From: a virus
Virus record (IMG/VR): IMGVR_UViG_3300032291_000100
Location: 1-32,217 of that record
Length of the DNA stretch: 32,217 nucleotides
Reading direction: 5' to 3' (one strand)
The notes under the pieces are model-generated. The model was given only the letters and a program-made list of their open reading frames with translations, was not told the DNA's origin and did no database searches. The position numbers were made by a program, and so were the translations under genes. The stretch's first letter is position 1. The number at the start of each line of letters is the position of its first letter. Below, piece after piece: positions 1,692 to 10,410 of this stretch.

Positions 1692-1897
1692 TTGAATATG
1701 CTCTTTGTTAATACGGTTTTAGTGGGTTCGCATTGCACAACACTTGAGGGCTGAATAGCAACAATGTACCCTGCAACAAAAGCGATTGTCGCCACCATGC
1801 CAAGTAATGTCATTAAATCAATAAAGCCATCCCACAGCCGTTCAAATATGGTGAGGGTTGCTATATCAGAGTCAATTGGGTCGGTGTAATTTGCCAT
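1688..1897 (-). CDS. Single-pass membrane protein, hypothetical
   Basis: A 69-residue protein with one hydrophobic stretch at about residues 31-49 (LLGMVATIAFVAGYIVAI), an acidic N-terminus and a polar C-terminus. A GGAG lies about 6 bases before the ATG at 1897, which fixes the start even though the gene then overlaps the end of the winged-helix gene by 37 bases. Its stop overlaps the next start as ATGA. Early phage membrane peptides can act in superinfection exclusion or host takeover, but nothing here shows which. Confidence 0.65.
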   Translation of the reverse strand: MANYTDPIDSDIATLTIFERLWDGFIDLMTLLGMVATIAFVAGYIVAIQPSSVVQCEPTKTVLTKSIFK

Positions 1898-2154
1898 TCT
1901 TGCTCCATTCTGTTTGAGTTACTGCGTACCGTTTGACCTGTTAAACATATCAGCCCGTCTCGTTCAATTTCTTTTACCCGTCTTGCGACTTGGTTGGAAT
2001 CAAGCCCTGTAAGGTTTGCAATTCCATCTTTGCCTAATTTGCCGTTCTTGCGTAGGCAATCCACAATAATTGTGGCGTGATGCTTTGCCAGTTCTTTGGC
2101 AGAATCGGCAGCCAGCCAACTGGTCAACGGGTCGGTGTTTCTTGCTCTAAACAT
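1861..2154 (-). CDS. Winged-helix DNA-binding protein (putative)
   Basis: A 97-residue protein with a recognisable winged helix-turn-helix at about residues 26-72. Two helices precede GKDGIANLTGLDSNQVARRVKEIERDGLI, where 'LTGLDSNQVARRVKEIERDGLI' follows the pattern of a recognition helix and wing in MarR- and ArsR-like folds. It lacks an effector or dimerisation domain. It lies directly after the SSB-like gene. A role as transcription regulator or replication accessory protein is possible; its target is unknown. Confidence 0.65.
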   Translation of the reverse strand: MFRARNTDPLTSWLAADSAKELAKHHATIIVDCLRKNGKLGKDGIANLTGLDSNQVARRVKEIERDGLICLTGQTVRSNSNRMEQEWQITPTQLTLI

Positions 2155-2428: not shown

Positions 2429-3070
2429 TTATTCTCCAATGATTGATTTAAGGGATACAACTTTGGCATCTAATTCTGCCAAAAATATAGTTACTTCGTC
2501 TTCGGCTATCTTGAGCCAATCAGCATTTCGTTCAACACGGAAGACAAAAAGTTGAGCCTTGATTGGCATCCGTGGGTCAAAAACCACATAGTCGCACCAA
2601 GATCTATCAGCGCAACGCATTTGCCACTGCATCTGTGCGTAATATTTTGCGTCTACTGGATTGCCACCTTGTGCATTAATTAACCAACATTCCAAAGCAG
2701 TGCTGGATGATGGGCATTTAATTTCAATCATGCCATCATCACCCACCAACCCATCAGGCGAGGCTCCAGCGGCTTCAATGGTAGGGTGAGATATAAACCC
2801 AACCTCTTCAACCATTTGACCCGTATGCACCTCATACGCAGCTCTAGCAAAAGGTTCTTGTTCTGTACCCCACTGCATTGCTGCATTTGAATACGATTCA
2901 GCTCTAGTTTGAGTGATGCGTTCTAATACAAGTTGGGTCATGTAATTGGTGCGGCTGGTGCTGTAACCTGTTTTTGTTTTGGCAAGCACATCAGCCAATC
3001 GGCTGGCAGTCACTTTGCCAAGTCGAACAGAAAACCAATCTTCCGTACCTTGTTCCATCATTTCAATCAT
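2429..3070 (-). CDS. YqaJ/lambda-type alkaline exonuclease
   Basis: A 213-residue nuclease of the PD-(D/E)XK superfamily. Candidate catalytic residues are Glu72 (GTEQEPFARAAY), Asp106 (GASPDGLVG) and Glu116/Lys118 (EIKCP), followed by a Gln-rich helix (YYAQMQWQM). From memory the spacing 72-106-116-118 equals that of lambda exonuclease 85-119-129-131, which makes the assignment strong. The enzyme resects double-strand ends 5' to 3' and hands the 3' strand to an annealing protein, here the Erf protein encoded just upstream. GGAG stands 7 bases before the ATG, and the start overlaps the erf stop as ATGA. Confidence 0.92.
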   Translation of the reverse strand: MIEMMEQGTEDWFSVRLGKVTASRLADVLAKTKTGYSTSRTNYMTQLVLERITQTRAESYSNAAMQWGTEQEPFARAAYEVHTGQMVEEVGFISHPTIEAAGASPDGLVGDDGMIEIKCPSSSTALECWLINAQGGNPVDAKYYAQMQWQMRCADRSWCDYVVFDPRMPIKAQLFVFRVERNADWLKIAEDEVTIFLAELDAKVVSLKSIIGE

Positions 3071-3615
3071 TGAAATTCTCCTTTCTTTGCGTCCTTGGCC
3101 TTAATGATGGCGGTCTTGGAGTTTTGGTCGTTACCAGCCACTTTGATTGCCTCAAAATATGCAGCCTTCAATTCATCCTCGTTGGTACAGGCTGCAATGT
3201 CAGCAACAAGTGCTTTGACCGTGGCGGCTGATACCGTAGGGGCTTTGGTGGCTGCGTTGCCATCATCATCTTCAGGTGCAATCCCACACGCTGCCATTAG
3301 GCTGTAACGCCGTGCGTAGGTCAGTGCCGAGCCGTAACCCTGTGGGTCTTGCTTGCTGGCTGGAACGTGCAATTTGCCGCATTCCAGCATCTCGCCCGAT
3401 TCGTGGATAAACACGGTTTCTACGGTCACGCCTGTTGTGTCTTCGCTGGTGCGTTGAACAAGTGCTATCCCTGCGCCATTTAAGCCTTCAATCACAGCCT
3501 CAACACAAGCGGCAAGGTCGGCGTAGCGGCTTTTAAAGTGTGGGTTGGTGGATGACTTGAGGGCTGGACCAAAAGCCTTTTGAGCCTTGACTAAGGCGGT
3601 TGCGATATTTTTCAT
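3067..3615 (-). CDS. erf: Erf-family single-strand annealing recombinase
   Basis: A 182-residue protein of the ERF superfamily. Signature blocks are NPHFKSRYADLAACVEAV (about 24-41) and QDPQGYGSALTYARRYSLMAACGI followed by EDDDGNAA (about 89-120). Erf proteins form rings on single-stranded DNA and anneal complementary strands, in P22 for circularising and recombining the genome. The C-terminal third (about 125-182) is helical and lysine-rich and probably binds partners. It is the first of the Erf-exonuclease-SSB cassette. The start is preceded by GAGGA and overlaps the previous stop as ATGA. Confidence 0.92.
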   Translation of the reverse strand: MKNIATALVKAQKAFGPALKSSTNPHFKSRYADLAACVEAVIEGLNGAGIALVQRTSEDTTGVTVETVFIHESGEMLECGKLHVPASKQDPQGYGSALTYARRYSLMAACGIAPEDDDGNAATKAPTVSAATVKALVADIAACTNEDELKAAYFEAIKVAGNDQNSKTAIIKAKDAKKGEFQ

Positions 3616-3788: not shown

Positions 3789-3865
3789 TACATACTCCAA
3801 AAATAAAGCACAAAGGGAAGCCCAACCAGGGCGGCGAACAGAAAAGCGGTGGCAATGTCTTTCAT
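3788..3865 (-). CDS. 25-residue predicted membrane peptide
   Basis: A very short frame, MKDIATAFLF followed by AALVGLPFVLYFWSM. It has one charged pair at the N-terminus and then about 20 hydrophobic residues, enough for one membrane span. Its ATG overlaps the stop of the acidic protein as ATGA, and its TAA overlaps the next ATG as TAATG, so it fills exactly what would otherwise be a 73-base gap in a gap-free operon. That fit is the main evidence that it is translated. Function unknown. Confidence 0.6.
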   Translation of the reverse strand: MKDIATAFLFAALVGLPFVLYFWSM

Positions 3866-4071
3866 TCGTGTGACTCCACAATCATGGCTTCAAGAGCGTA
3901 GATGGTGTGAACATCAATGTGCTCATAAAGCTCAATGCCGTTGACGTAAATTTGGTCAATGGTGGCTATTGCGGGAATGGGTGGGTCAATGTCCGTCTCG
4001 GTCTGAGCGTCTTCCCATTCGTATGTAACTTCCCATACGATGTTGTCATAAGTGAGGGTGGCTGAGTGCAT
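3862..4071 (-). CDS. Highly acidic small protein, first gene of the leftward early operon
   Basis: A 69-residue protein with 15 Asp/Glu and no Lys or Arg. Alternating polar and hydrophobic residues in the N-terminal half suggest beta strands (ATLTYDNIVWEVTYEWED), and the C-terminus looks helical (YALEAMIVESHE). The start at 4071 follows AAGGA with 7 bases spacing; a longer frame to 4095 ignores that signal. It is the first gene behind operator/promoter copy A, so it should be made early. The charge resembles DNA-mimic inhibitors such as Ocr or Gam, but no homology is visible and this remains inference. Confidence 0.75.
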   Translation of the reverse strand: MHSATLTYDNIVWEVTYEWEDAQTETDIDPPIPAIATIDQIYVNGIELYEHIDVHTIYALEAMIVESHE

Positions 4072-4115
4072 TTTGATTTCCTTAAAAGACCCCAAGAAGT
4101 TCAGGGCATGAGTGC

Positions 4116-4144
4116 ATTATAATCACAATTGTGAACTATGCAAA
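4116..4144 (-). promoter_or_regulatory. Leftward early promoter A
   Basis: On the minus strand there is a perfect -10 box TATAAT (4116-4121) and, 17 bases upstream, TTTGCA (4139-4144), a 4/6 match to the -35 consensus. Transcription would start near 4109, about 38 bases before the first ATG at 4071. The operator palindrome lies between the two boxes. Confidence 0.65.
4123..4134. promoter_or_regulatory. Operator A: perfect palindrome TCACAATTGTGA
   Basis: A 12-bp perfect palindrome between the -35 and -10 boxes of promoter A, where a bound protein would block RNA polymerase. An identical copy lies at 5243-5254 and a degenerate one at 5330-5341. The best candidate ligand is the Cro-like protein encoded at 5355-5537. 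Confidence 0.65.
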
Positions 4145-4198
4145 CTATTTTTGGAACATTTTTTAATCATGTTTTCGTTGTTGATAGATTTTGTTAAT

Positions 4199-4217
4199 GG
4201 GGCCAAAGCCCCGTTTT
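4199..4217. terminator. GC hairpin after the DUF932 gene, possible terminator
   Basis: GGGGC-CAAA-GCCCC forms a 5-bp GC stem with a 4-base loop, 9 bases beyond the stop of the DUF932 gene. In the direction of that gene no run of T follows (ATTAAC), while on the plus strand GTTTT does. It may weaken read-through into the downstream operon, but it is not a clean intrinsic terminator. Confidence 0.35.
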
Positions 4218-4220
4218 CCC

Positions 4221-5189
4221 TTAAACAAGTAGGAGTGTTTCGGCTTCTGATTTAAGTCTGTTGCCATTGCCAAACCAAGCATTGTTCATGCGTGTGTCTA
4301 CATTGTGTCCACGCTCATGGTCGATGTATTGAGTCACCGCATTCAGCAAGCCCCATCGTGTACCGTAAACCCCGTGGTTTGATGCACCAATACCTGCACC
4401 ATCAAAGAGTTCTAAAACCCGTTTGAAGCCCTTGGACTCTTTCAACTTTTCGGTCTGTGGGTCAAAGATTGCAGGGAATAATTTGCTGGTGAAATTCTTT
4501 GCGTATTCAAGTGAAATACCTTGTCGAGCAAGTGACCTGTATTTATCCATCATTCCATCAAACCCACCAACAATGATGCCGAGGCGTTCTCGCATCAAAC
4601 TTGCATCAAAGTCTGCACCATGAGTTAAAATCACACGACTTGGTGAAAGTTCAGTATCAGCAGCTGAGAGGGTGTTATTGCAGACAACTCGAATACTGGT
4701 GAATTGACCGATGGTTGCAGTTAATCCATCAAAAGATGTGCTGAGAAGTAGATAGCCTTTAACAGCATCATCATTCAAAACTACCGCTTCTTTGTTAACA
4801 TTTGCCAATGCCCAGATTCGTTTACCGCCTTTGATAGCCCCTGCAACCTCAAGAGTAAAACCAACTGATTGCACCAAAGTATTAAAGAAGTCTAAAACTT
4901 CTGCAGGTTGGTGAATTTTGTATCGGTCCGAAACTACACCAAGTGGGATTTTGTTGTCGTTCCGAAAGATCACATTTTTGTTTTTGACTTCCTGAGGCGC
5001 AACCATACCTTCAGGCCAAAACATGACAGGGGAAACTTGTGCCTCCCAATCAAGTCCAGCCTCTTTGCGCCAAACATCAATGGGTGCATCTTGTGTCAAC
5101 TGTTGACCAAGACCGTGCCAAGGAATGCTGTTTGCAAAAGCAATTTCTGCTTTTCCTGTCTGTGTATTGTTTTCGATTAAATGTGCCAT
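4221..5189 (-). CDS. DUF932 family phage/plasmid-like protein
   Basis: A 322-residue protein of the DUF932 (TIGR03299 phage/plasmid-like) family. Typical blocks are the N-terminal WHGLG segment (about 24-28), IPLGVVSDRYKIHQPAEVLDFF (about 81-102), the GKRIWALA strand and FTSIRVVCNNTLSAA (about 163-177). The family is common in phages and plasmids near recombination genes, but its biochemical role is not established. It has its own copy of the promoter and operator and is separated from the downstream operon by a hairpin and promoter A, so it forms an independent unit. AAGGA stands 7 bases before the ATG, as in the acidic gene. Confidence 0.85.
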   Translation of the reverse strand: MAHLIENNTQTGKAEIAFANSIPWHGLGQQLTQDAPIDVWRKEAGLDWEAQVSPVMFWPEGMVAPQEVKNKNVIFRNDNKIPLGVVSDRYKIHQPAEVLDFFNTLVQSVGFTLEVAGAIKGGKRIWALANVNKEAVVLNDDAVKGYLLLSTSFDGLTATIGQFTSIRVVCNNTLSAADTELSPSRVILTHGADFDASLMRERLGIIVGGFDGMMDKYRSLARQGISLEYAKNFTSKLFPAIFDPQTEKLKESKGFKRVLELFDGAGIGASNHGVYGTRWGLLNAVTQYIDHERGHNVDTRMNNAWFGNGNRLKSEAETLLLV

Positions 5190-5235
5190 TTTGATTTCCT
5201 TAAAAGACCGCTACGAAATGTTGCGGCATGAGTAG

Positions 5236-5265
5236 ATTATAATCACAATTGTGAAGCCTTGTAAT
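5236..5265 (-). promoter_or_regulatory. Leftward promoter B, for the DUF932 gene
   Basis: On the minus strand the -10 box TATAAT (5236-5241) is perfect. The best -35 is ATTACA (5260-5265), a 4/6 match at 18 bases. Transcription would start near 5229, about 40 bases before the ATG at 5189. Confidence 0.6.
5243..5254. promoter_or_regulatory. Operator B: perfect palindrome TCACAATTGTGA
   Basis: Identical to operator A and in the same place relative to the -10 box, so the two leftward promoters should respond to the same protein. Confidence 0.65.
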
Positions 5266-5329
5266 TTCTTTTAACAAATAAACTTATCGGTTTATCATTG
5301 TTGATAAGTTTTTTTTATGGGTTATTGAT

Positions 5330-5348
5330 TCACAATGGTGTATATAAT
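5330..5348 (+). promoter_or_regulatory. Rightward promoter C with degenerate operator
   Basis: On the plus strand TTCACAATGGTGTA directly precedes TATAAT (5343-5348) and GC. It aligns without gaps to the minus-strand sequence of copy A at 19 of 22 positions. The palindrome is broken at one half-site (TCACAATGGTGT, 5330-5341), so binding may be weaker than at A and B. No good -35 is visible at 16-18 bases; the promoter may need an activator. A start near 5355 would coincide with the ATG of the regulator gene. Confidence 0.6.
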
Positions 5349-5354
5349 GCTGCA

Positions 5355-5537
5355 ATGAACATCTTAGAAATATCAATCAAATCGGCTGGTGGCACAGGGC
5401 GGTTGGCTTTTATGCTGGACTTAAAGCAGAACGTTGTGTCCAACTGGCGGCAGCGGGGCGTTCCTAAGTCATGGGAACAGGTGTTGAAGTACAAATTTAA
5501 GAAGCAGATTGCGGAAGCGCAAAAGGCTGTGGTATAG
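5355..5537 (+). CDS. Cro-like helix-turn-helix regulator
   Basis: A 60-residue protein. Residues about 11-40 form a helix-turn-helix of the Cro/YdaS kind: GGTGRLAFMLDLKQNVVSNW, then RQRGVPKSW, where VVSNWRQRGVP is the recognition helix and following turn. The length fits a Cro-like protein with no second domain. A longer frame begins at 5298 but would place the promoter inside the gene. The ATG at 5355 is 6 bases after the TATAAT and has no Shine-Dalgarno, so the mRNA is probably leaderless. It is the only Cro-like regulator near the three operators and is divergent from the leftward genes, as in lambdoid switches. Confidence 0.75.
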   Translation: MNILEISIKSAGGTGRLAFMLDLKQNVVSNWRQRGVPKSWEQVLKYKFKKQIAEAQKAVV

Positions 5538-5643: not shown

Positions 5644-6420
5644 ATGCATTACTACCAATTCAACATTGGCGATTACAAGGCCGCCACTGCCCATTTAACC
5701 AATGAAGAAGATTTGGCATATCGGCGTTTGCTTGATATGTATTACGATTCTGAAACTAAAATCCCATTGGATACCCAGTGGGTTGCGAGGCGTATCCGAG
5801 TTGAGGCATCAGTCATCCGTGATGTGCTAAACGATATGTTTGACAAACACGATGACGGATGGTTTCACGCAAGATGCCAAGAGGTGATTGAGGCTTATCA
5901 CGCTATGGCTGAGAAAAATCGTGTTAACGGCAGGATGGGAGGGCGCAAAAAGAACCCAGTGGGTAGCCCAATGGCTACCGACACGCAACCCATCGCTAAG
6001 GCAACTATAAACTATGAACTAGAAACTATAAAACATAAACCAATAAAGAATACAGCCACTACCGTGGCAACGCCTAACGGCGTTTCAGAATTCGTTTGGC
6101 AAGAATTTGTTTCACACAGGAAATCCAAGAAAGCCAAAGTCACGCAGTTGGTAATTGACGGAATTGTCAAAGAGGCCAACAAAGCCGGATGGACACTTGA
6201 GAACGCATTAAAAGAAACCATTGTTCGCAACTGGCAGTCGTTTAAGGCTGATTGGGTTCTTGATAAACAAAACCACCAGCAGCAAAGTTTCGCCGAGCGT
6301 GACCAGCAAGCCCGACAAAAGCGTTGGGAAGCAATGACAGGGCGTAAATGGCCTACCGAAGAACCAGTAAACACAGCATTTTTGGAGATGGAAAATGAGC
6401 ATTTCATTAAAGGCAATTGA
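5644..6420 (+). CDS. DUF1376 phage replication-module protein
   Basis: A 258-residue protein. The N-terminal 90 residues are a DUF1376 domain: MHYYQFNIGDYKAATAHLT, then EEDLAYRRLLDMYYDSE, IPLDTQWVARRIRV and a helix with VIEAYHAMAEKNR. These domains resemble winged-helix initiator domains and occur at the place of lambda O in many phages. The middle is a low-complexity Thr/Asn/Pro linker, and the C-terminal part (about 145-225) resembles a DnaD/DnaT-like helical segment (WQEFVSHRKSKKAKVTQLVI). ATG at 5644 is preferred to the TTG one codon earlier; AAAAAGG lies about 10 bases upstream. The 100 bases before it hold no convincing gene. Confidence 0.8.
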   Translation: MHYYQFNIGDYKAATAHLTNEEDLAYRRLLDMYYDSETKIPLDTQWVARRIRVEASVIRDVLNDMFDKHDDGWFHARCQEVIEAYHAMAEKNRVNGRMGGRKKNPVGSPMATDTQPIAKATINYELETIKHKPIKNTATTVATPNGVSEFVWQEFVSHRKSKKAKVTQLVIDGIVKEANKAGWTLENALKETIVRNWQSFKADWVLDKQNHQQQSFAERDQQARQKRWEAMTGRKWPTEEPVNTAFLEMENEHFIKGN

Positions 6421-6838
6421 TAGACTTTTTGAGCGACTTGCCGCTACTTATCCTAATTGGTCACGCCAATGGCTTGATGTGCCTGAATCGGACATTAAAA
6501 CGGCTTGGGCGCACGAATTAAGCGGTTTTGAAAACAATTTGCAAGCATTGGCATGGGCGTTGGAGAACTTACCCGAACGATGCCCAAACGTCATCGAATT
6601 TCGCAACCTTGCTAGACGTGCGCCGGAGGCAGAAAAGCCTCGATTGCCCGAACCCAAAGCAGACCTCGCACGGTTAAAAACCGAACTTGCCAAACTTAGC
6701 GACATAAAGGCGCAAGTTAAAAATGCACCTATTGACCCGAAGGGCTGGGCAAAAGCAATCCTAAAACGCCACAAGGAAGGCTTAAAAATCAACATTACAA
6801 CTCTGTCAATGGCCCGATGCGCTGTAAATGAAGAATGA
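6395..6838 (+). CDS. Helicase-loader-like replication protein (lambda P-type, putative)
   Basis: A 147-residue protein that overlaps the DUF1376 gene by 26 bases. The N-terminus AIDRLFERLAATYPNWSRQW, the WAHELSGF segment and the block LENLPERCPNVIEFRNLARRAP (about 57-78) follow the pattern of phage P-like proteins that deliver the host helicase to the initiator. The C-terminal half is a charged helix (KADLARLKTELAKLSDIKAQ). Position directly after an O-like gene agrees with this. It is shorter than lambda P and I see no ATPase motif, so the assignment is by pattern and context. Confidence 0.6.
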   Translation: MSISLKAIDRLFERLAATYPNWSRQWLDVPESDIKTAWAHELSGFENNLQALAWALENLPERCPNVIEFRNLARRAPEAEKPRLPEPKADLARLKTELAKLSDIKAQVKNAPIDPKGWAKAILKRHKEGLKINITTLSMARCAVNEE

Positions 6839-7006: not shown

Positions 7007-7270
7007 ATGAGATACGCAGCGCGGACAGACGCAAACCAAACCGAAATTGTGATGGCGTTACGCAAAGCCGGGGCTTATGTTTGGGTAATTGGCCTACCAG
7101 TTGACCTTTTGGTGGGTTACAAAAATCACACATTCTTGGTTGAAGTCAAATCAACCTCTAGGAAGCGTTTAACGAGCCTACAAGCCGACTTTTTTAACAA
7201 TTGGTCGGGAAGTACCTTGGCACGGATTGACAGCGTAGAAGCCGCTTTAAACATGATTGGGGTTTTATGA
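7007..7270 (+). CDS. VRR-NUC-type nuclease
   Basis: An 87-residue protein that is a minimal VRR-NUC domain of the PD-(D/E)XK superfamily. Likely active residues are Glu13 (NQTEIVMALR), Asp33 (LPVDLLVGY), Glu46 and Lys48 (LVEVK) and Gln59 (LTSLQADFF). Stand-alone phage VRR-NUC proteins are thought to cut branched or flapped DNA, and some resemble Holliday-junction resolvases. It would act in replication or in resolving structures before packaging. GGGA precedes the start, and its stop overlaps the next ATG as ATGA. Confidence 0.85.
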   Translation: MRYAARTDANQTEIVMALRKAGAYVWVIGLPVDLLVGYKNHTFLVEVKSTSRKRLTSLQADFFNNWSGSTLARIDSVEAALNMIGVL

Positions 7271-8007
7271 GGATTGTTTGTTGGTTTAGTTGCGGTGCTG
7301 CCAGTGCGGTTGCTACCAAATTGGCAATTGCTGAAAACGCAGGTAAATTGCCTTTAATCATTGTTTACACGGAAATTGCAGAGGAGCACCCTGACAACAA
7401 ACGTTTTTTAAAAGAGTGTGAAACATGGTTTGGTCAAGAAATTCAAATACTGCGAAACGAAAAGTACGAAGGCAGCATTTACAACGTATTTGAAAAAAAA
7501 CGGTACATCGTAGGGGTTGCAGGTGCGCCATGCACAAAACTGCTTAAAAAAGAAGTGCGCCAAAAGTTTGAGCAATTGACAGACCGACAAGTGTTTGGCT
7601 ATACCGCCGAAGAACAACACCGCCTTGACCGATTTATAGACGCAAACAATGATGTGGACATTCAAACCCCATTGATTGACAAAGGGCTGTCAAAAGAAGA
7701 TTGTTTGGCAATGCTTGAAAACGCTGGAATTGAACTTCCTGCAATGTATCGGCTTGGCTATCACAACAACAATTGCATTGGGTGTGTGAAGGGGGGGGCT
7801 GGATATTGGAACAAAATCCGAGTGGACTTTCCGCAACACTTTGACCGCATGGCTAAACTTGAACGTGAAATTGGGGCAAGTATTACAAAATCAAAGGGCG
7901 AACGGGTTTACCTTGACGAATTGCCTACCAATGCCGGAGATTACCCAAAAGAACAAAACATTGAATGTTCTATTTTTTGCCACATGGCAGAGGAGGAATA
8001 TAAATGA
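7267..8007 (+). CDS. PAPS-reductase-like N-type ATP pyrophosphatase
   Basis: A 246-residue protein of the phosphoadenosine phosphosulfate reductase superfamily. The nucleotide loop is FSCGAASAVATKLA (about 7-20), in place of the usual SGGxDS. IIVYTEIAEEHPDNKRF (about 31-47) is the second conserved block. Cys89 (GAPCTK), Cys170/Cys173 (NNCIGC) and Cys234/Cys238 (CSIFC) could hold an iron-sulfur cluster, as in related ATP pyrophosphatases used for sulfur insertion. Phage members are common but their substrate is unknown. Sulfur metabolism, tRNA thiolation and DNA modification are all possible; no Dnd partner genes are present here. Confidence 0.8.
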   Translation: MRIVCWFSCGAASAVATKLAIAENAGKLPLIIVYTEIAEEHPDNKRFLKECETWFGQEIQILRNEKYEGSIYNVFEKKRYIVGVAGAPCTKLLKKEVRQKFEQLTDRQVFGYTAEEQHRLDRFIDANNDVDIQTPLIDKGLSKEDCLAMLENAGIELPAMYRLGYHNNNCIGCVKGGAGYWNKIRVDFPQHFDRMAKLEREIGASITKSKGERVYLDELPTNAGDYPKEQNIECSIFCHMAEEEYK

Positions 8008-8815: not shown

Positions 8816-8837
8816 GGGGCTTCGGCCCCTTTTTTTT
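8816..8837 (+). terminator. Strong intrinsic terminator between early and late genes
   Basis: GGGGC-TTCG-GCCCC followed by eight T. A 5-bp GC stem with a UUCG tetraloop and a long U-run is a textbook terminator. It separates the early rightward operon from the modification and virion genes 10 bases downstream, so late transcription must read through it or start close to it. Confidence 0.9.
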
Positions 8838-8846
8838 AAGGACGAT

Positions 8847-9362
8847 ATGAATCCAGCCGATAAAGTAGAAAAGTGGAAGATAAGCAAACTTATCCCCTAC
8901 GCCCGAAACGCCCGAACTCACAGCAATGAGCAGGTAGGCCAGATAGCGGCAAGCATTAAAGAATGGGGGTGGACAACCCCTGTTTTAGTAGACGAGACAG
9001 GCGGCATCATTGCGGGGCACGGTCGTACTTTAGCGGCGCAAAAGCTAGGCATGACTGAAATCCCTGTAATGGTAGCTAAAGGATGGTCTGATGCTAAAAA
9101 ACGGGCTTATGTCATTTCTGACAATAAACTTGCATTAAACGCTGGCTGGGACAACGAGATGCTTGCGCTTGAGCTAAGTGAGATCAAAGACCTTGGTTTT
9201 GACTTAGACCTAACTGGTTTTAGTGCAGGCGAAATTACTGGATTAACTTTTCAAGAAAAAGATTTATATCCTGATTCAAGTACAAAAGAAATTGACCCAG
9301 ATGACTACAACATGGGACATCAATGCCCAAAATGTGGATTTGAGTTTGACGATGATAAATAA
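8847..9362 (+). CDS. ParB-like nuclease-domain protein with C-terminal zinc knuckle
   Basis: A 171-residue protein. The ParB/sulfiredoxin-type domain spans about residues 8-95: KISKLIPYARNARTHSNEQV, SIKEWGWTTPVLVDE, and the core GGIIAGHGRTLAAQKLG. In many phages this domain is fused to an N4/N6 adenine methyltransferase; here that part is absent, and the protein ends in an acidic tail with CPKCGFEFDDDK. The start at 8847 follows AAGGA; a longer frame from 8805 would run through the terminator. The methyltransferase gene overlaps its end, so the two are probably translated and act together. Confidence 0.85.
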   Translation: MNPADKVEKWKISKLIPYARNARTHSNEQVGQIAASIKEWGWTTPVLVDETGGIIAGHGRTLAAQKLGMTEIPVMVAKGWSDAKKRAYVISDNKLALNAGWDNEMLALELSEIKDLGFDLDLTGFSAGEITGLTFQEKDLYPDSSTKEIDPDDYNMGHQCPKCGFEFDDDK

Positions 9363-10410
9363 ACCTGATTGCGCTTGGAATCTAGCAGACCTTGCAGCCA
9401 TACCCAAAAACGGATTGAAGGTGATGAGCACCTTTGCCTGTGGAGGTGGTTCTAGTATGGGTTATAAACGCGCAGGATGCGAGGTAATTGCAGCTAACGA
9501 CATTGACCCTGAGATGGCTTGGCATTACAAACTAAACATTAATCCCAAGCATTATTTTCTTTGTCCTATTGGTGAATTGATGGAAAAGGAATTGCCAGAA
9601 GAGCTTTATAACTTAGACATTCTTGATGGCTCTCCACCTTGTTCAACATTTAGCATGGCTGGCAGCCGAGAAAAAGCATGGGGTAAAGATAAGCACTTTC
9701 GAGAAGGACAAGCAAAACAAGTACTATCTGACCTGTTCTTTGACTATCTTGATCTAGTTGGAAAGCTAAAGCCCAAGGTAGCTATTGCCGAGAATGTTAA
9801 GGGAATGCTGATTGGCAATGCCAAAGGCTATACAAAGATGGTGATGGCTCGTTTCAAAGAGCTGGGTTATCGTCCGCAGTTATTCCTTTTAAATGGTGCA
9901 GATTGTGGTGTGCCACAAAGGCGTGAACGGGTTTTTTTTGTGGCCATTCGTAATGACGTTGACGTTCCACTTTTACAACTTGCACCTAAACATCGATGGA
10001 TTAGCGCAGGTGAAGCAACAGAAGACTTACAGATTTTAACTGTTAATGAAATAAAAGAAACTAAACCAGCAGAAACAGATATTAAATTTTGGCCGGGGAC
10101 TAAACCTGGCAATAGTTATGCTGATGAATGGTTAAGATTAAAAGGTAAGCCATCAGGTTTTAATACAATAAGATTAAACAAACAAAGACCAGCTTCAACA
10201 ATTACGGCAACAGATTGCAGTAGACATTGGGATCAATGCCGTAAATTAACTTACCGTGAATGGAAACGCTTAGGCTCATTCCCAGACGATTACCAAGCTA
10301 AATCAGACAAGATTGGCAAGTACATGATTGGAATGAGTGTTCCTCCTAAAATGACTGAACAAGTTGCTCGTGCAGTAATTGACCAGTGGCTTCTGCCAAA
10401 GGGAGAGTAA
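9352..10410 (+). CDS. C5 cytosine DNA methyltransferase
   Basis: A 352-residue methyltransferase with the motifs in order: I (STFACGGGSSMGYKRAG), IV with catalytic Cys97 (DGSPPCSTFSMAG), VI (AENVKGML), VIII (QRRERVFFVAIR), IX (RPASTITATD) and X (IGMSVPPKMTEQVARAV). It adds a methyl group to C5 of cytosine in a short recognition sequence that I cannot predict. The recognition region between VIII and IX is short. ATG at 9352 is chosen; frames from 9292 or 9301 add residues not expected in the family. Its likely role is protecting phage DNA from host restriction, as there is no companion restriction enzyme. Confidence 0.9.
   Translation: MINKPDCAWNLADLAAIPKNGLKVMSTFACGGGSSMGYKRAGCEVIAANDIDPEMAWHYKLNINPKHYFLCPIGELMEKELPEELYNLDILDGSPPCSTFSMAGSREKAWGKDKHFREGQAKQVLSDLFFDYLDLVGKLKPKVAIAENVKGMLIGNAKGYTKMVMARFKELGYRPQLFLLNGADCGVPQRRERVFFVAIRNDVDVPLLQLAPKHRWISAGEATEDLQILTVNEIKETKPAETDIKFWPGTKPGNSYADEWLRLKGKPSGFNTIRLNKQRPASTITATDCSRHWDQCRKLTYREWKRLGSFPDDYQAKSDKIGKYMIGMSVPPKMTEQVARAVIDQWLLPKGE

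Follow-up and report, generated by a model that had tools for sequence, protein, structure and literature searches.

The control region described here belongs to a small, P22-like phage that is represented in metagenomes only, and whose sequence is the virus record IMGVR_UViG_3300032291_000100 of IMG/VR; "the window" below is the whole stretch analysed, 32,217 bp in length. The record encodes the virion genes of a P22-type podophage, namely portal, coat, connector and ejection proteins, and the portal has matches in 239 phage records, P22-like Salmonella phages among these. Two sets of early genes diverge from the control region (Table 1). The leftward set consists of DUF932, a 69-aa ORF and the recombination genes ERF and YqaJ, while the rightward set starts with a gene for a 60-residue Cro-like protein and continues with replication genes. 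At the end of the leftward operon lies a small winged-helix protein (1861-2154, minus strand; HTH_24, with a weak Ren-like match), a possible second regulator, and the rightward early region also contains a PAPS-reductase-like gene (7267-8007), a ParB-like nuclease (8820-9362) and a C5-type DNA methyltransferase (9340-10410). A DNA match to the Chlorobiaceae phage CV-1-33 was set aside, being restricted to the beginning of the replication gene. A role of the region as replication origin was considered, as the cumulative GC skew reaches its minimum nearby, and was dropped because no consistent DnaA box showed up in this Cro class.

Table 1. Genes and predicted control features of the early region (positions in the window).
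Feature	Position	Strand	Sequence or basis
YqaJ, leftward recombination gene	2429-3070	-	family match
ERF, leftward recombination gene	3067-3615	-	family match
Leftward recombination genes together	2429..3615	-	
69-aa ORF behind promoter A	3862..4071	-	
Leader hairpin and U-run behind promoter A	4079..4110	-	
Leftward promoter A	4116..4144	-	TTTGCA, 17 nt, TATAAT; consensus match only
Operator A	4123..4134		TCACAATTGTGA; in spacer of second leftward promoter; predicted from sequence
Upstream element of promoter A	4178..4202		TTGTTGATAGATTTTGTTAATGGGG; centre at about -82 from predicted leftward start
DUF932 protein, first leftward gene behind promoter B	4221..5189	-	
Leader hairpin and U-run behind promoter B	5197..5230	-	
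Leftward promoter B	5236..5265	-	ATTACA, 18 nt, TATAAT (or TTACAA with 17 nt); consensus match only
Operator B	5243..5254		TCACAATTGTGA; in spacer of main leftward promoter; predicted from sequence
Shared upstream element between promoters B and C	5298..5322		TTGTTGATAAGTTTTTTTTATGGGT
Upstream element, further sequence written for it			TATAGGKACTTTCCCTAATA
Operator C, degenerate	5330..5341		TCACAATGGTGT; at cro promoter; predicted from sequence
cro promoter, -10 box	5343..5348	+	TATAAT; recognisable -35 absent
Cro/YdaS-like repressor, 60 aa	5355..5537	+	predicted leaderless mRNA
DUF1376/O-like, rightward replication gene	5644-6420	+	family match
P-like, rightward replication gene	6395-6838	+	weak match
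Rightward replication genes together	5644..6838	+	

Operators and the Cro-like protein

The initial annotation of this DNA had described a perfect palindrome beside TATAAT in two copies of a promoter region, a constant distance of 55 bases from each to an upstream block, and a third, degenerate and inverted copy at the Cro-like gene, and all of these hold. The 12-mer TCACAATTGTGA occurs only at sites A and B in the whole 32,217-base record, each time one base off a leftward TATAAT (4116-4121 and 5236-5241). In both copies TTGTTGATA starts (at 4178 and 5298) 55 bases from the operator start, and the C site, which reads TTCACAATGGTGTATATAATGC on the plus strand and lies one base ahead of the TATAAT of the 60-codon ORF, is identical to A in 19 of 22 bases in inverted orientation. 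That the promoter region is duplicated is also clear from the local alignment of the A and B copies from start codon through operator, which scores 96, the maximum among 500 resampled pairs being 31. If at most two mismatches are allowed, such palindromes are no rarer in the window than by chance (four found, 2.64 expected); the window alone is thus weak evidence, and relatives were therefore examined.

Relatives of this Cro were collected from 67 viral loci, with a few more added by profile search; none was found in one genome per species for 84,980 bacterial and archaeal species, and none among 50,697 phage records. The palindrome, which had been proposed as something to look for next to Cro-like genes in related phages, is indeed there, as both the B and the C operators are present in 63 of the 65 distinct upstream regions, with one operator per promoter as in the window and not three as in the lambda type. 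Loci with this cro hold 103 instances of operator plus -10 box (92 near cro and 11 farther away, the latter all leftward), and the same DNA read backwards (686 kb) holds none. In most relatives the C operator is the full TCACAAWTGTGA, as good as B. The earlier suggestion that the regulator represses itself more weakly would consequently apply to the lineage of the window only, where C is degenerate. One related contig of 33 kb (IMGVR_UViG_3300020042_004684) carries two differing Cro-like loci, L030 and L152, on opposite strands, either as two copies or as a chimeric assembly.

Phages with other classes of Cro-like protein keep the layout, and their repeated hexamers differ, tracking the recognition helix. 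At least two copies of TCACAA stand upstream of cro in 82% of the loci with the helix [RK]QNxxSNW and in none of the other classes; the helix TRGAVxQW goes with CTATAC repeats, and SR[AP]AVTQY with ACTTAA/TGTTAA. Of all the evidence here, this co-change of helix and hexamer speaks most strongly for the Cro-like protein as the putative reader of the palindromes. Since the operator follows the helix class of the adjoining gene in this way, we regard it as very improbable that a host regulator binds the palindrome and that the Cro-like protein has another function, even though TCACAATTGTGA does resemble the half-sites of several host regulators.

On profile and predicted fold the 60-residue protein is best described as a remote Cro. 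Its sequence profile matches the Cro of Xfaso 1 (3bd1) with an E-value of 2e-7, and the same structure is the best match of the predicted fold (TM 0.73; model pLDDT 92), with YdaS and P22_Cro Pfam scores that stay under the curated cut-offs. The same Pfam family includes YdaS of CP-933P, for which footprints on divergent early promoters and their repression have been described and which was termed a Cro analogue (Table 1 for the present gene; PMC8630535 for YdaS). The ATG of cro at 5355 lies six bases past its TATAAT, so that the mRNA should be leaderless, and in every relative the ATG follows the first base of the -10 box at a distance of 11-14.

Helical phase and the upstream element

The distance from operator B to operator C falls into five classes of 56-57 (4 loci), 67-68 (17), 78-79 (4), 87-89 (37) and 99 bp (1), which are separated by gaps empty of loci and by steps of one helical turn. 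For a period of about 10.5 bp the mean resultant is 0.93 over the loci and 0.99 over the five classes, and the cro gene tree calls for at least 18 changes of spacing class, all of them in phase. Phasing from -10 to -10 was rejected as the worse fit, with a coherence at 10.5 bp (R 0.85) below that from operator to operator (R 0.93). This difference would favour a contact between the Cro dimers at B and C, made by a short loop or wrap of the DNA, which would fix the phase. We find such a contact improbable, because the two operators are offset by about 0.4 turn (5.4, 6.4, 7.4, 8.4 and 9.4 turns) and face different sides of the helix, and because the A copies hold the same operator-to-element distance with no C partner.

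Another explanation, which we consider unlikely, is that the steps of 10-11 bp are a mutational habit (slippage or duplication of T-tracts) and the phase is unselected. The classes 57, 67 and 78 among type II spacers do differ by units such as CTTTTTTCAA, and many class changes resemble an exchange of spacers between lineages, some surely being exchanges of the whole spacer; with such exchanges and T-tract steps within one spacer type, mutational bias is a live rival. It fits poorly with the common phase of unrelated spacer sequences (type I, type II and the form in L006/L007), with the 18 in-phase class changes of the tree and with the count of zero loci between classes.

The spacer between the promoters contains an element made of an inverted repeat or a T-tract, of which there are two forms. 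The 55-base constancy had been left uninterpreted in the initial annotation; the constancy itself is real, and it reflects this element standing in helical register with the promoter. Relative to the predicted leftward start, the element is centred at -52 (2 loci), -62 to -65 (14), -73 to -76 (4), -81 to -83 (27) or -93 (1), and it lies at about -42 to -45 from the predicted cro start; starts are predicted 12 nt past the first base of each -10 box. Phages with different Cro proteins have it in common. It is found at -82 to -84 at the second leftward promoters of this Cro class, which have no rightward promoter, and at -62/-63 in both copies of another Cro class with other operators. The element is thus a helically spaced site upstream of the predicted start, as class I and class II activator sites are. 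For comparison, CRP activates from -61.5, -71.5/-72.5 and -81.5/-82.5, with a periodicity of 10.5 bp (PMC6301791).

Viral stretches with the TATWRGKACTTTCCCTAATA form of the element (TAGGKACTTTCCCTA) number 101. Cellular genomes totalling 257 Gb contain four exact matches to the upstream motif, which is near chance, and on this ground we rejected it as the site of a host regulon; one of the four, L261, matches the phage locus L197 and is therefore probably a phage contig itself. The TATWRGKACTTTCCCTAATA loci (L033-L087, L197, L214, L223 and others) lie next to Cro-like genes of several unrelated families and also occur in other settings, and in other phages some of the sites adjoin a DnaA-box-like TTATCCACTT.

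A tentative reading, to which we give somewhat less than even odds, is that the element is bound by a phage or host activator or by the alpha subunit of RNA polymerase, with a class I action at the leftward promoter and a class II action at cro. It would extend a Cro brake and not replace it, early transcription being activator-driven and Cro-braked. Its positions near the CRP activation distances (PMC6301791) point this way, as do the element distance kept in A copies and in another Cro class, the cro promoter without a clear -35 box, and the contrast between viral stretches and chance-level cellular matches. Weighing against it, a candidate for the binder is absent, two sequence forms are lumped together, -52 is an unusual position for class I, and the element is missing at three distal promoters (L040, L055 and L064). 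The transcription starts are moreover predictions, for which a constant offset looks integral from some reference point, and the element was recognised post hoc in data already seen.

An intrinsic terminator between the promoters was also considered for the same spacers. Some type I spacers can form a hairpin followed by Ts (-7.4 kcal/mol in the window, -8.5 in L008 and -9.8 in L064); many spacers fold near zero, so that this is not a conserved terminator.

The duplicated unit and its leader hairpin

The duplicated unit comprises the upstream element, the operator-promoter, a leader hairpin and a ribosome site. In the relatives where DUF932 was not found (L003-L005), promoter B is followed immediately by the 69-aa ORF. 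The window and seven further loci instead have other leftward genes, DUF932 among them, ahead of a second operator-promoter with its element. The simplest account of this arrangement would be that a copy of the control unit accompanies genes as they join the leftward operon. We propose that the second unit arose in this lineage as DUF932 took its place between promoter B and the 69-aa ORF, by which both leftward segments would have stayed under the same control. Just past the stop of DUF932 (4200-4213) there is a further hairpin, GGGGCCAAAGCCCC, and relatives have similar ones after the element of the A copy.

The leader hairpin (CATGCC...GGTCTTTTAAGGA) has exactly two copies in the window. 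Among the leftward transcripts listed, all except that of L041 can form a hairpin at their beginning, with UCUUUU and usually a ribosome site after it. For five aligned pairs the pairing is 98.3%, with 12 double changes, and none of 500 shuffles matched the pairing or the covariation score. The hairpin is common to phages of other Cro classes, and Rfam gave no family match in the window. It looks like an attenuator or a 5′-end stabiliser, and its role may concern attenuation, stability or antitermination.

A proposed Cro brake and known early regions

Early control in this phage appears to be exerted by a single repressor of the lambda Cro type, without a lysogeny repressor. Neither the CI-type families S24 and HTH_3 (PF00717, PF01381) nor the tyrosine integrase and resolvase families (PF00589, PF00239) had a match in 16 records, namely that of the window and 15 related ones, many of the related contigs being fragments; the same searches were positive in named control genomes. 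This agrees with the first inspection of the DNA, which saw no CI-type partner, and the early control region is probably that of a virulent phage. The description of the locus as a compact switch is right as to the related operators and their Cro-like reader, but as no opposing regulator was found, a repressive, negative-feedback brake fits better than a bistable switch.

The best explanation as a whole, with a probability of roughly three in four, would be a CI-less Cro negative-feedback brake on divergent early promoters, with the unit duplicated. What can be read directly from the sequences is the conservation of the operators, their co-change with the recognition helix, the duplication, the phased element, the covarying hairpin and the absence of the tested CI and integrase families. 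According to this explanation the back-to-back promoters, each with one operator adjoining its -10 box, would drive DUF932 and recombination to the left and leaderless cro followed by replication to the right. On entry both would fire, presumably with help of the phased element to RNA polymerase. The Cro-like protein would then build up, bind the palindromes, presumably as a dimer, and block RNA polymerase at promoters B, C and A, the last being the second leftward copy, so that early transcription would be shut off through negative feedback, with no CI to maintain a lysogenic state.

The phage could instead be temperate, its CI and integrase having escaped our searches, and the region an ordinary two-repressor switch. 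Many ORFs are without known function, the record is maybe incomplete and the searched families do not span every repressor type; a CI of an unsearched family, or one supplied by the host, may also act here. Yet the B and C promoters are 87 bp apart with no intervening gene, the 16 records lack any match to the integrase and repressor families, and the genomes of the 84,980 species contain no relative of this Cro. We hence judge a temperate switch to be rather improbable.

Combining the Cro brake with the putative activator gives a broader picture, which the sequences suggest only tentatively and which we hold to be possible but short of an even chance. In widespread freshwater, apparently virulent phages, one shared activator-like element would drive divergent early operons, as class II at cro and class I leftward, and would keep its helical register across whole-turn changes, with swappable Cro proteins and operators as the only brake. 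Element, operator-promoter and leader hairpin would be copied before new genes, and the element motif would be phage-specific. A lambda/P22-type early region that seemingly works with Cro alone bears on the role of Cro without a lysogenic decision. The approximately 60 natural variants of the promoter pair form a ready-made mutational series from which to learn about helical phasing, the recognition of operators and the swapping of repressor specificity, and the phase-locked element predicts a further transcription factor or a direct contact with RNA polymerase.

Several known systems resemble parts of this one. As in lambda and P22, a small Cro faces a leftward recombination operon and precedes the replication genes, the operators overlap the promoters, and the virion genes are of the P22 type. 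Here, in contrast, there is no cI gene between the promoters and no integrase was found; each promoter has one operator instead of three, the promoters lie back to back at a distance of about 90 bp, and it is cro, not cI, that is predicted to be leaderless. In CP-933P a Cro analogue of the YdaS family acts on divergent early promoters, and binding by the protein of the same family is predicted here; a leaderless regulator gene (paaR2) occurs there too, but the CI analogue PaaR2 and the CII analogue YdaT share that region, unlike here, and its 18-bp palindromes differ in sequence from the present operators (PMC8630535). The closest match in profile and fold, Xfaso 1 Cro (PDB 3bd1), comes from a Xylella prophage. 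The element is placed similarly to the sites of CRP class I and II promoters, near -61.5, -72.5, -82.5 and about -41.5 with 10.5-bp periodicity (PMC6301791), with another motif, in phage promoters and with putative activation. Finally, the P22-like Caudoviricetes sp. ct3Oc712 (MW202867), whose portal is 69% identical, has a gene annotated as cro opposite a leftward early operon and an annotation without integrase or cI; its Cro-like protein is a different one, and the intergenic stretch read has no TCACAATTGTGA. We found no description of this Cro-only, phased-element system in the literature. A Cro-controlled divergent early region is thus of an already known kind, and what seems to be new, as far as our sequence tools show, is its CI-less form with a single operator per promoter, a leaderless cro and, above all, a shared element locked in phase.
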